Of a stretch of DNA of 42,968 nt, positions 18,695 through 22,744 are shown one piece after another; position 1 is the stretch's first letter, and the number at the start of each line of letters is the position of its first letter. The notes below the pieces were generated by a model, which did not search any database, had not been told where the DNA came from, and saw only the letters and a list, made by a program, of their open reading frames with translations. Origin of the DNA: an uncultured Fidelibacterota bacterium (GTDB taxonomy: Bacteria; Fidelibacterota; Marinisomatia; Marinisomatales; UBA1611). A program made the translations under genes and the position numbers. The DNA lies in assembly GCA_902562835.1 (NCBI GenBank), contig CACEUX010000014.1, positions 1-42,968 on the forward strand. The letters are read 5' to 3'.

Positions 18695-18860
18695 GCTATA
18701 GCCTCATTATAATATTCTTTATTAAACATAATTTTCATTAACACCAAATGCCGGAAGAAACAATGGCTATACATATTTTCAAATCTTTGGTCACTACTTA
18801 TCTACTGGCATAAATAAATCGATTTTTTTCCTTTTTACAAGTGCCCCCTATTAAAGCGAA

Positions 18861-18901
18861 AATGACCCTGCTAGAGCATTTTGGCTCTTAACATGGTCAT
18901 T
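18861..18901 (-). terminator. compound hairpin downstream of rpmE, possible terminator
   Basis: Outer arms AATGACC (18861-18867) and GGTCATT (18895-18901) enclose inner arms AGAGC (18873-18877) and GCTCT (18884-18888) with a 6-base loop. On the minus strand the structure starts 16 bases after the rpmE stop and is followed by TTTTCGCTTT. The T-run is interrupted, so this may be a weak terminator or a 3' end stabiliser for rpmE. The remaining gap (18695-18860) is AT-rich and shows no gene; it should hold the prfA promoter. Confidence 0.45.
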
Positions 18902-18916
18902 TAGGATATTCTTATT

Positions 18917-19165
18917 CTACTTACGTCCGTATTTTTGATTAAACTTTTCTATACGTCCAGCTGTATCAACAAGATTCTGTTTACCAGTAAAAAATGGATG
19001 AGATTTATTGGAAATTTCAATCTTACATAATGGATACTCATTCCCATCATCCCACTTTATCGTTTCTTTAGTTTCAACAGTTGACTTAGTTAAAAAAGCA
19101 TAATCACAAGACGTATCTTTAAAAACAACCAACCGGTAATTATCCGGATGGGTACCTTTCTTCAT
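18917..19165 (-). CDS. rpmE2: 50S ribosomal protein L31, type B (zinc-free)
   Basis: An 82-aa ribosomal protein. The opening [17 protein letters not shown] and the ending [21 protein letters not shown] with a lysine/arginine tail are diagnostic. The zinc-binding cysteine pairs of type A L31 are missing and the extra loop [11 protein letters not shown] marks type B, which in other bacteria is used under zinc limitation. No second L31 gene is visible here, so it may be the only copy. ATG 19165 is preceded by the strong site AGGAGA 5 bases upstream. The aspC stop lies 13 bases before the start codon, so both may share a transcript. Confidence 0.95.
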
Positions 19166-19178
19166 ATTTTTCTCCTAA

Positions 19179-20381
19179 TTAAATAATATTGGATAAAGCA
19201 GCACCAACCTGCTCTATTCCTTTTTCAATAACACTCGTACTTGTGGCATATGAGAACCTAATATGGCCAGGTGCTCCAAAACCATCGCCAGGTACTGTAA
19301 CAACACTCGCAGAGTTTAAAATATACTCTGAAATATCAAAAGTATCTTTCAAGACCTTCCCGCCTCCTTTCTTATTCAAATAAAAACTAAAATCAGGAAA
19401 CGCATAAAATGCACCACCTGGCATAAAAGAAGTAACCTTTGGCAATCGATTTAAGAGGTCAACCATCAACTCTCGTCTTTTTTTAAAAGAAAATTTCATT
19501 TCTTCAACACAATCTTGATTACCACTCAACGCTTCTATTCCAGCTTTTTGGCCTATAGAGTTTGCACATGATGTCGCCTGGCCTTGCAATTTAGACATCG
19601 CTTTTATGATTTTTCTTGGGCCTGCTGTATAACCAATTCTCCAACCTGTCATGGCATAGGTTTTTGACAGGCTTAAACATGTGACTACGGTAGCATTGAT
19701 ATTATTCTGCCTGTTTAATTTTTCTGTACTTATGAACTCTCCATCATATACGAGTCGCTCATAACATTCATCAGAAATAATAACCCACTCGTTTTCTTTT
19801 GCAATTCTTAATAGTTTTAACAATGCTTTCTCCCCCCACACACCTCCTGTAGGGTTTGATGGAGAATTAATAATGATTCCTCTTACATTCGGATTTATCT
19901 TTGATTGTAAATCATCAAAATCAGGTTCAAAATTATTTTCTGCTATAGTATCTACAAGTAAAGGCTCTGCATCTGCAAGTCGCACAAATTCCGGGAAGGA
20001 TACCCAATAAGGCCTAAGAATCATTACCTCATCACCAGCTCCAAATAGAGCCTGACATGCAGTATAAAGACTTTGCTTCTCTCCGTTGGAAACAAGGATA
20101 TCTTGTATATTATAAGCTATCCCATTTTCTTTGTTAAGCTTGTCACAAATTGCTTGTCTAAACTCAATCATTCCAGGACCAGCAGTGTATTTTGTATATC
20201 CTTGGTCCATTGCTTTTTTCCCAGCCTTGATAATGTGCTCAGGCGTATTAAAATCAGGTTCTCCAACTGAAAAATTAATTACGTCTAAACCTTGTGTACG
20301 CATTTCTGCCGCAATTGTTGCCATTTGTAATGTAAATGAAGGCTTGACCTTTGAAACGCGATCAGATAGTTTATAATTCAA
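19179..20381 (-). CDS. aspC: pyridoxal-phosphate aspartate aminotransferase, class I
   Basis: A 400-aa aminotransferase of the AspB/AspC (subgroup Ib) type, transferring amino groups between aspartate and 2-oxoglutarate. The PLP-binding lysine is K240 in SLSKTYAMTGWRIGY. The ring-stacking and phosphate-contacting segments are NSPSNPTGG (N175 region) and ISDECYERL (D204). The C-terminal arginine that binds the alpha-carboxylate lies in GHIRFSYATS. The start is TTG at 20381, inside the TTGA overlap with the upstream Cas6b-like gene; it matches the family's beginning LSDRVSKVKPSFT, and no ATG occurs before residue 20. Closely related enzymes can also accept prephenate, so aspartate/prephenate specificity is not settled. 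Confidence 0.92.
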   Translation of the reverse strand: MNYKLSDRVSKVKPSFTLQMATIAAEMRTQGLDVINFSVGEPDFNTPEHIIKAGKKAMDQGYTKYTAGPGMIEFRQAICDKLNKENGIAYNIQDILVSNGEKQSLYTACQALFGAGDEVMILRPYWVSFPEFVRLADAEPLLVDTIAENNFEPDFDDLQSKINPNVRGIIINSPSNPTGGVWGEKALLKLLRIAKENEWVIISDECYERLVYDGEFISTEKLNRQNNINATVVTCLSLSKTYAMTGWRIGYTAGPRKIIKAMSKLQGQATSCANSIGQKAGIEALSGNQDCVEEMKFSFKKRRELMVDLLNRLPKVTSFMPGGAFYAFPDFSFYLNKKGGGKVLKDTFDISEYILNSASVVTVPGDGFGAPGHIRFSYATSTSVIEKGIEQVGAALSNII

Positions 20382-21469
20382 AACTTATGTTGTTTTTTAT
20401 GGTGCTTCTCTGTGTTAAACTTATAATCATCTTTGGAATCATTCGGTTTTTTATTATCATCTCTATTTTCTTCTTCAATATCAAATTCCTCAGAGAATAA
20501 ATGTCCATGTCCTGGGCTCCTTTTCTTTTGATTGTAGGGGTTGTTCCGAGTTTGGATATTGCCTTTGTTCGTATTTGAATAGTATTTCTGTTTATTTTTT
20601 TTATTTTTATTCTGATGTTTTTTATTTTTATTCTGATGTTTTTTATTTTTATTTGATGAGCGTTTTCTGCGTTTTGGCTTTGGTACTTCAGATGCAGATA
20701 TACACTCTAAATCTTCTCTTTTTTCAAGAGGTTCAATCTCTTGGCCCTTTGCATCTTCCATTAATGCTTCTTTATCAAAAGAGAATGACTCAGGATTGAA
20801 CATCCCATAAATCGTTCCAAAACCGCGTGTAATCCCATTCCCAATACCAATATAATTTGGCAATATAAAATTTGTTTTAAATTCTCCCATAAATGCTCCC
20901 CATTTATTCTCATCAACAGGCTTGGGGAAAAGACTTGAAACCTTTACTTTTGTAAAAATGTTATCTTCTAGGCTTATGCCAACTTCATTAGCTAGAAAAA
21001 TAATATTTTGACCTAGCAACTTATTTAAATAAGATGGTTTTTCTTGATTTGTAAGAAATTTATATTTACCACCAGTCATGTGGTTCAAAGCAACCCATGG
21101 AGTAATAAAGCGATATCTTACCAAATGCTTAGCAGGGATAAATTGTTGATTTGCATCCTCTATGTCACAATCTTGAATTTCAAAAGTAATATTTCCAAAA
21201 TCCAGTGATTCGAACTTATCACAAATCGATAAAACTGATTCTACTCCCTCGTTTATGCCAATGATATAAATCTGCTCATTTAATATTTTTACTTGGACTC
21301 TAGGATAGAGGAATCTATCCCGGTATGAACCATCTAACATAGGCACAATGGGTTCATCTGAGTATTGCCGCATAAAAACACCTTTTACTTGGTAAGGAGT
21401 TTTTCTTACTGGTTTATTTGTAATGACCCTGGCGACAACAGATTTTATATCAGGGTAACTATCACTCAT
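20378..21469 (-). CDS. Cas6b-like RNA-binding/endoribonuclease-family protein with a basic low-complexity tail
   Basis: A 363-aa protein in two parts. Residues about 25-222 match the pattern I know for the Cas6b N- and C-terminal domains: YPRVQVKI (55-62), IIGINEGVESVL (69-80), YRFITPWVALN (119-129), and the glycine-rich RAMP loop LPNYIGIGNGITRGFGTIYG (203-222). The paired histidines often seen before the YP motif are not present (PMLDGSYRDRFLYP), so cleavage activity is doubtful; H115 and H130 are the only core histidines. From about residue 264 the protein is highly basic and disordered (KPKRRKRSS, then repeated NKNKKHQ units), with an acidic patch near 327-338 and a Lys/His end. It begins 24 bases after rho and overlaps aspC (TTGA). 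No other cas gene or array is in the window. Confidence 0.65.
   Translation of the reverse strand: MSDSYPDIKSVVARVITNKPVRKTPYQVKGVFMRQYSDEPIVPMLDGSYRDRFLYPRVQVKILNEQIYIIGINEGVESVLSICDKFESLDFGNITFEIQDCDIEDANQQFIPAKHLVRYRFITPWVALNHMTGGKYKFLTNQEKPSYLNKLLGQNIIFLANEVGISLEDNIFTKVKVSSLFPKPVDENKWGAFMGEFKTNFILPNYIGIGNGITRGFGTIYGMFNPESFSFDKEALMEDAKGQEIEPLEKREDLECISASEVPKPKRRKRSSNKNKKHQNKNKKHQNKNKKNKQKYYSNTNKGNIQTRNNPYNQKKRSPGHGHLFSEEFDIEEENRDDNKKPNDSKDDYKFNTEKHHKKQHKF
20597..20651 (-). repeat. 21-bp tandem repeat inside the Cas6b-like gene
   Basis: On the plus strand the unit TTCTGATGTTTTTTATTTTTA occurs perfectly at 20610-20630 and 20631-20651, and its last 13 bases also occur at 20597-20609. The unit length is a multiple of three. 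On the coding strand it encodes repeated KNKKHQN units in the basic tail. It has no spacers and is not a CRISPR. Such a repeat is prone to length change by slippage. Confidence 0.88.
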
Positions 21470-21493: not shown

Positions 21494-22744
21494 CTATTGG
21501 CTCATTGTATCAAGGAATTCTTCATTAGACTTAGTTCGTTTCATTCTGTCTTGCATGAATTCCATTGCCTCTTCTACTTTCATATCATTCAAAAGTTTAC
21601 GAAGAATCCACATTCTACCTAATTCTTTACGACTGAGCAGTAATTCTTCTTTCCTGGTACCAGAACGTATAATATCGAAAGCTGGGTATACTCTTCTATC
21701 ACTTAATCGACGATCTAACGCTAATTCCATATTCCCAGTACCTTTAAATTCCTCAAAAATTACTTCATCTGCTCTGCTGCCTGTATCAATAAGCGCAGTG
21801 GATACAATAGTTAAACTTCCACCTTCTTCTGTATTCCTTGCCGCGCCGAAGAATTGCTTAGGTTTTTTAAGTGCATTAAAGTCTACACCTCCAGAAAGTA
21901 TTTTCCCACTATGGGGTATTACTGCATTGTGGGCACGAGCAAGTCGTGTTATACTATCAAGTAGAATAACTACATCATTTCCATATTCTACCATCCTTTT
22001 TGCTTTTTGTAAAACCATATCAGCAACAGAAACATGGCGTTCTGGAGGCTCATCGAATGTAGAACTAATAACTTCAGCGTTTACATTCCTTTTCATATCT
22101 GTTACTTCTTCTGGTCTTTCATCTATTAATAAGACAATTCTTTTTGTTTCTGGATGATTTTCACTTATTGCATTCGCTAATTTTTGTAGAAGAACAGTCT
22201 TGCCTGTTTTTGGTTGCGCTACAATAAGCCCCCTCTGTCCTTTGCCTATAGGAGAAATTAAATCCATAATTCTCATTGAAAGGTCTTTTGATTTTGATTC
22301 TAATTTAAATTTCTCTTCAGGATATAATGGAGTGAAGTTATCAAAAAGAATTATATCCTTTAATTTATCTATGGGCTCATCATTGACCATCTCTACTTTT
22401 AGTAAGGCGTAGAAGCGTTCTTTTGATTTAGGGGGTCTTATTTGCCCAGATATCAAGTGTCCTGTTTTCATCCCGAATCGTTTTATTTGCGATGGGCTTA
22501 CATAAATATCATCAGGACCAGGCATATAATTATAATCCGGAGACCGGAGAAACCCATAACCATCCTGCATAACCTCTAAAACACCTCTGGCAGTAAAAGA
22601 ATTATCTTTTTTTGCATGTGTTTCTAATATTTTAACAATTAGCTCTTGTTTATTAAGGCCAGCTATACCGCCTTCTATATTTAATTTTTGTGCTAATTCC
22701 GTGACTTCACGAATATTTAGTGATTGCAGCTCATTGAGGTTCAT
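21494..22744 (-). CDS. rho: transcription termination factor Rho
   Basis: A 416-aa hexameric RNA-dependent ATPase that ends transcription. The N-terminal Rho-N helices ([16 protein letters not shown]) precede the cold-shock-like RNA-binding fold ([20 protein letters not shown]). The P-loop is AQPKTGKT (176-183), in place of the more usual APPKAGKT. Other conserved parts are [11 protein letters not shown], the Walker [17 protein letters not shown] with the catalytic region, the Q-loop [13 protein letters not shown] and the R-loop GGSLTI. Length is typical with no large insertion. It starts at ATG 22744, 81 bases after folC, and the Cas6b-like gene follows 24 bases later with no terminator between them. 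Confidence 0.97.

Follow-up and report, generated by a model that had tools for sequence, protein, structure and literature searches.

The window (the whole stretch of 42,968 nucleotides that was analysed) carries a gene for a Cas6b-like protein within a run of housekeeping genes on the reverse strand. Its open reading frame of 363 codons begins with an ATG, 24 bases after the end of rho (21494), and it overlaps the start of aspC (20381) by 4 bases, which is exactly the spacing given in the preliminary description. Beyond rpmE, which follows aspC, lies a gap of 222 bases (18695-18916). In many relatives a gene of about 320-330 codons, with ILVGGQAVIEGVMMRVPGAYA close to its beginning, separates rpmE from prfA; only the gap is present at this place in the window. 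Rfam and tRNA scans of the window gave no match. The features of the locus are:

21494..22744, (-): rho, adjoining the Cas6b-like gene upstream (open reading frame list; same position at homologous loci)
20378..21469, (-): rho-linked Cas6b-like protein, 363 amino acids (Pfam Cas6b_N and Cas6b_C, PADLOC Cas6b, PDB 4z7k, AlphaFold/Foldseek)
20804..21469, (-): Cas6b core, residues 1-222, two ferredoxin-like (RAMP) halves (Pfam, phmmer alignment, AlphaFold; same fold in the model of the homologue L180)
21338..21343, (-): site of the canonical catalytic His-Asn-His, occupied by P43-M44 and with a deletion at the second histidine (alignment of linked and canonical proteins)
20816..20848, (-): glycine-rich loop GIGNGITRGFG, residues 208-218, which fits the Cas6 consensus GxGxxxxxGxG (PMC3727216)
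20510..20695, (-): Lys/Asn-rich tail, residues 259-320, predicted to be disordered, net charge +21 (charge count; pLDDT)
20381..20419, (-): conserved C-terminal motif, residues 351-363, FNTEKHHKKQHKF (homologues of the window's order)
19179..20381, (-): aspC-like aminotransferase, downstream (open reading frame list; homologous loci)
18917..19165, (-): rpmE (ribosomal protein L31), after aspC in the unit (open reading frame list; loci of relatives)

The assignment to Cas6b, first made from sequence motifs, was borne out by profile searches, by sequence similarity to a protein of solved structure and by the predicted fold. Pfam detects Cas6b_N at residues 8-106 (41 bits, cut-off 25) and Cas6b_C at residues 114-220 (84.4 bits, cut-off 39.4), and four rho-linked homologues from other families likewise score above the curated cut-offs for both domains. 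PADLOC matches the protein to Cas6 (1.4e-41) and Cas6b (7.3e-40), NCBIfam gave no meaningful match, and a sequence search of the PDB returned Cas6b of Methanococcus maripaludis (4z7k, 2.3e-24) as the sole match. An AlphaFold model built from 32 homologues predicts the core reasonably well and the tail as disordered; its best Foldseek match in the PDB is again 4z7k (TM 0.74, normalised to the target; E 3.8e-14). The model of L180, a homologue that lacks the tail, has a mean pLDDT of 90.4 and matches 4z7k with a TM of 0.81 (normalised to the target; E 2.1e-18), and all 31 of its Foldseek matches at E <= 0.001 are Cas6 or Cas6-containing entries. Both ferredoxin-like halves are thus present in the models of the window protein and of L180. 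In its two Pfam domains, its paired ferredoxin-like halves, its GxGxxxxxGxG loop and its core of about 220 residues, the protein resembles the Cas6b of type I-B systems (4z7k; PF17955/PF17262).

The rho-linked proteins differ from crRNA-processing Cas6b in that the His-x-His is missing, the loop is shortened and a glycine-loop lysine is replaced by asparagine. In an alignment of 29 rho-linked proteins with 9 canonical Cas6b proteins (8 from the same phylum plus 4z7k), the His-Asn-His before the YP motif has its first histidine in 8/9 canonical proteins and its second in 9/9, whereas the first is found in 0/29 rho-linked proteins and the position of the second is a gap in 29/29. The lack of the histidine pair before the YP motif, which had been noticed in the window protein, extends to all 29 linked proteins aligned. 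Two histidines have been implicated in catalysis by M. maripaludis Cas6b (PMC3652601); by our reading these are H38 and H40 of the phmmer alignment, in which H38 falls on P43 of the window protein and H40 on a gap. Other histidines are scattered near the site in some linked copies, and none is in register with the canonical pair. The residue after the GxG of the glycine loop is K in 8 and R in 1 of the 9 canonical proteins; it is N in 25 of the 29 rho-linked proteins, including that of the window. A lysine near residue 186, conserved in canonical Cas6b, is never lysine in the aligned rho-linked copies. Invariant across the linked proteins of the phylum are Y119, P124, W125, N155, F193, G195, F197, N200, P204, G210, G216 and G218.

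Loss of the histidines is by itself no proof of inactivity, because Sulfolobus Cas6 cuts RNA without an active-site histidine, through basic residues (PMC3652601). The rho-linked protein shares the missing histidine with this enzyme (Sso1437; PMC3652601), which is an active, dimeric crRNA nuclease with different basic active-site residues. The rho-linked protein might then still be a ribonuclease that acts on cellular RNA, in processing or decay, and not on crRNA, and the basic residues K19, K23, K29, R50, R57 and K61, invariant in the window's order, as well as a histidine that precedes the canonical site by a few residues in one family (f20), would suit such an enzyme. However, these six residues are not invariant phylum-wide, and the two lysines of canonical Cas6b, in the glycine loop and near residue 186, are replaced in the linked copies; we regard continued cleavage as unlikely. 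A possible model for its working is PhCas6nc of Pyrococcus horikoshii, an inactive Cas6 homologue that binds unstructured RNA in its inter-domain cleft (PMC3727216). The likeness is one of description, namely a Cas6 fold that holds RNA without catalysis; unlike the rho-linked protein, PhCas6nc was studied as a binder of CRISPR repeats and has no known linkage to rho.

The lysine- and asparagine-rich tail reported in the preliminary description is real: residues 259-320 carry a net charge of +21, against 0 for residues 1-228, and pLDDT is below 50 over most of this segment. It is not plain low complexity, since a conserved motif stands at its end. The pattern [FY]N[STRA]xx[YHF]H was found within the last 20 residues of all 57 homologues checked in the window's order, typically as FN[ST]xx[YH]HxxQH or a form near it. 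In most copies of this order the added stretch is rich in Lys, Arg and Asn, and the linker before the motif varies freely. In families outside the order, linked copies are about 220-250 residues long and stop at the glycine loop or shortly beyond it. As the tail and its motif are confined to one order, the ancestral function cannot reside in them. To judge from its sequence, the end motif may be a docking peptide. It was also considered as a module common to other proteins, an idea that was rejected when its DNA pattern matched this gene in 7 of 13 genomes and one other site.

The distribution of the gene was surveyed in 245 genomes of Candidatus Neomarinimicrobiota (Marinimicrobia), mostly metagenome-assembled and many of them incomplete. 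A profile built on the window's order matched 130 genomes, and a phylum-wide profile also matched 130; four of the matching genomes (G081, G083, G209 and G218) hold only an unlinked type, which leaves 126 carriers of the rho-linked type. Linkage could be read at 88 loci (87 genomes) of these carriers, and every one has rho immediately upstream in the same orientation, with a gap of -4 to 182 bp (median 30 bp); aspC lies directly downstream at 72 of 85 loci. Among 80 named public contigs rho is within 250 bp in 78, and the two remaining gaps measure 409 and 506 bp. The best 80 matches to the order-specific motifs in public contigs are titled Neomarinimicrobiota/Marinimicrobia, FCB-group or unspecified bacterium. 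In one genome (G021) two contigs (L033 and L037) each bear a rho/Cas6b-like/aspC unit, and the two units differ clearly in sequence; the assembly is probably mixed (5% contamination) and the unit not duplicated. Two others (G204, C128; G205, C93) have, in addition to the normal rho, an open frame of about 356-360 amino acids for another, divergent protein that contains a Rho RNA-binding domain. Searches of open-access literature found no description of a Cas6 that is linked to rho or comes from Marinimicrobia.

The gene is missing from families f15, f16, f17 and f26-f29. In f15 (reduced genomes of about 0.4-1.0 Mb), f16, f17 and one f20 genome, rho is followed directly by aspC, and in the small-genome lineages of f15 and f16 (L215, L216 and L229-L231) the absence is clean, with rho and aspC 1-11 bases apart. 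Since lineages with rho and without the Cas6b-like gene exist, Rho does not need this protein.

Ribosome-binding proteins commonly have basic tails, and rpmE, prfA and prmC are among the neighbours in many genomes. The protein could accordingly be an RNA binder that serves translation or the assembly of ribosomes and is carried along in a stable housekeeping operon, without being specially tied to Rho. This reading is set against the loci of families f22 and f23 (L189-L194), where aspC, rpmE and prfA were not seen downstream, the gene begins about 10-13 bases after rho and, in f23, dnaE comes after it. There the operon has been rearranged yet rho was kept, so it is rho, and not the other genes of the operon, that the gene accompanies; rho is, moreover, the upstream neighbour at each of the 88 loci. 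We consider a role in translation improbable to the same degree as a surviving ribonuclease. The order rho-aspC-rpmE-prfA is itself old, so that position alone could account for part of the linkage.

In a tree that also included 4z7k and the phylum's unlinked Cas6b proteins, the 56 rho-linked copies fall on one side of a branch with an SH-aLRT of 96, and the phylum profile separates the types, with E <= 2e-63 for rho-linked and >= 3e-48 for unlinked proteins. Presence and absence mapped on the rho tree require at least 8 changes. Because the gene is at the same place everywhere, one early capture followed by several losses is the simplest account, a judgement of parsimony rather than of a formal test against alternatives. 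Pairwise comparisons of the core gave dN of 0.015-0.093 at dS of 0.35-2.0, and a dN/dS of about 0.03-0.08, which is like that of aspC (0.05-0.08) and above that of rho; the tail evolves faster than the core. The rho-linked copies are under purifying selection.

HRAMP and other exapted CRISPR derivatives also place RAMP proteins outside adaptive immunity (PMC8730458), and the rho-linked gene might by analogy encode a defence protein derived from CRISPR and working without an array. Derived modules of this kind are known (PMC8730458), but they are multi-gene modules of Cas5/Cas7-like proteins and nucleases, whereas here a single Cas6 protein is found in a housekeeping unit. A fixed chromosomal place, vertical inheritance and slow evolution of the core are unlike defence genes, the recurring neighbours are housekeeping genes, and the conserved pattern of the gene was not found in viral contigs; a defensive role is accordingly very unlikely. 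That the gene is virus-borne was rejected on the same lack of a match in viral contigs.

The claim that no CRISPR system lies near the gene held for the window, in which no repeat family with CRISPR spacing, no array and no cas gene besides the Cas6b-like frame was found. The window's genome (78% complete) has no Cas1 and no second Cas6b_C match; among 61 relatives, Cas6b_C was detected in 56 and Cas1 in 4. Across the phylum Cas1 is found in 31/245 genomes, that is in 12/126 carriers of the rho-linked type and 19/119 non-carriers, counts in which the absence of Cas1 does not equal the absence of all cas genes. The rho-linked homologues are not next to CRISPR arrays; with both ferredoxin-like halves present as well, neither of the two outcomes named in the preliminary description as refuting it came about. 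Two genomes of the window's family are Cas1-positive, one with a Cas12a and one with a Cas9 system. Among close relatives of the window's genome, a type V-A locus (L247:580-6313) holds Cas12a, Cas1 and an array, and a type II locus (L248:8411-12745) holds Cas9, Cas1 and an array. Type II and type V systems do not use Cas6. Genome G044 has a type III locus with its own Cas6, and G179 has, besides its rho-linked copy, a type I-B locus whose own His-Asn-His Cas6b lies by Cas8b, Cas7b and Cas3. A type III locus at L250:3908-14194 comprises Cas10, a divergent Cas6 of its own, Cas1 and an array; the frame beside Cas1 there, which is followed by the array, resembles a reverse transcriptase by eye. 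That the protein, as a member of the Cas6b family, supplies crRNA in trans to a CRISPR system at another locus of the genome is already contradicted and was rejected as extremely improbable, given that 114 of the 126 carriers lack Cas1, that Cas1 in the two positive genomes of the window's family goes with Cas12a and Cas9 systems, that each type III or I-B system examined has a Cas6 of its own, and that the catalytic histidines are lost.

Differences from crRNA-processing Cas6b extend to the setting: the rho-linked gene lacks CRISPR surroundings, is fixed after rho and, in one order, adds a basic tail and end motif. That a Cas6b-derived protein has been domesticated into the rho unit is, taken alone, highly probable. 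The proposal that a RAMP protein had been recruited to general RNA metabolism is partly supported. Its recruitment away from CRISPR has strong support, in that linkage to rho is phylum-wide, the catalytic histidines are lost and the gene is decoupled from Cas1; RNA binding tied to Rho termination is a possible role. On the favoured reading, a Cas6b was captured behind rho early in the history of the phylum, lost its catalytic histidines and CRISPR partners, and has been inherited vertically within the rho transcription unit ever since. By analogy with the inactive PhCas6nc, we infer that it binds RNA and that it does not cleave it: RNA may sit in the cleft formed by the paired ferredoxin-like halves and the glycine loop. 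In the window's order the flexible, strongly basic tail could lend non-specific affinity for RNA, and the conserved end motif could be the docking point for a partner.

The genomic context, with rho adjacent at 88 of 88 loci, suggests a tie to Rho or to Rho termination. The likeliest partner would be Rho itself or the RNA that Rho loads on, so that termination or the expression of Rho might be modulated. Rho residues compared between carriers and non-carriers gave weak, lineage-bound differences and nothing decisive. A conserved RNA hairpin at the rho/gene junction was considered as a binding site and rejected, as the junction is not conserved across 20 relatives; it holds one weak terminator-like hairpin, of a kind expected by chance. 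The full chain, in which a captured Cas6b became a non-cleaving RNA binder whose partner is Rho or Rho-loaded RNA, is put forward tentatively, as a reading nearly balanced between right and wrong. More tentative again is its most specific form, a possible one on the doubtful side of balance, in which a CRISPR Cas6 was domesticated near the base of the phylum as a dedicated Rho partner, that is, a lineage-specific RNA-binding cofactor (or antagonist) of termination, retained for as long as the phylum has existed and fitted with an order-specific docking tail.

One practical consequence concerns annotation, since profile tools call the rho-linked protein Cas6 and so would give a false CRISPR signal in genomes without any such system. 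In this phylum, which is abundant in the ocean, a single Cas6 has become a vertically inherited core gene in a large share of its members, at an invariant place behind rho; in contrast, the CRISPR exaptations described in the reviews consulted retain several cas genes or guide RNAs. If the protein does bind Rho or its RNA, it would be a termination factor of a new class and a clear example of how a CRISPR protein can pass into the core RNA machinery.
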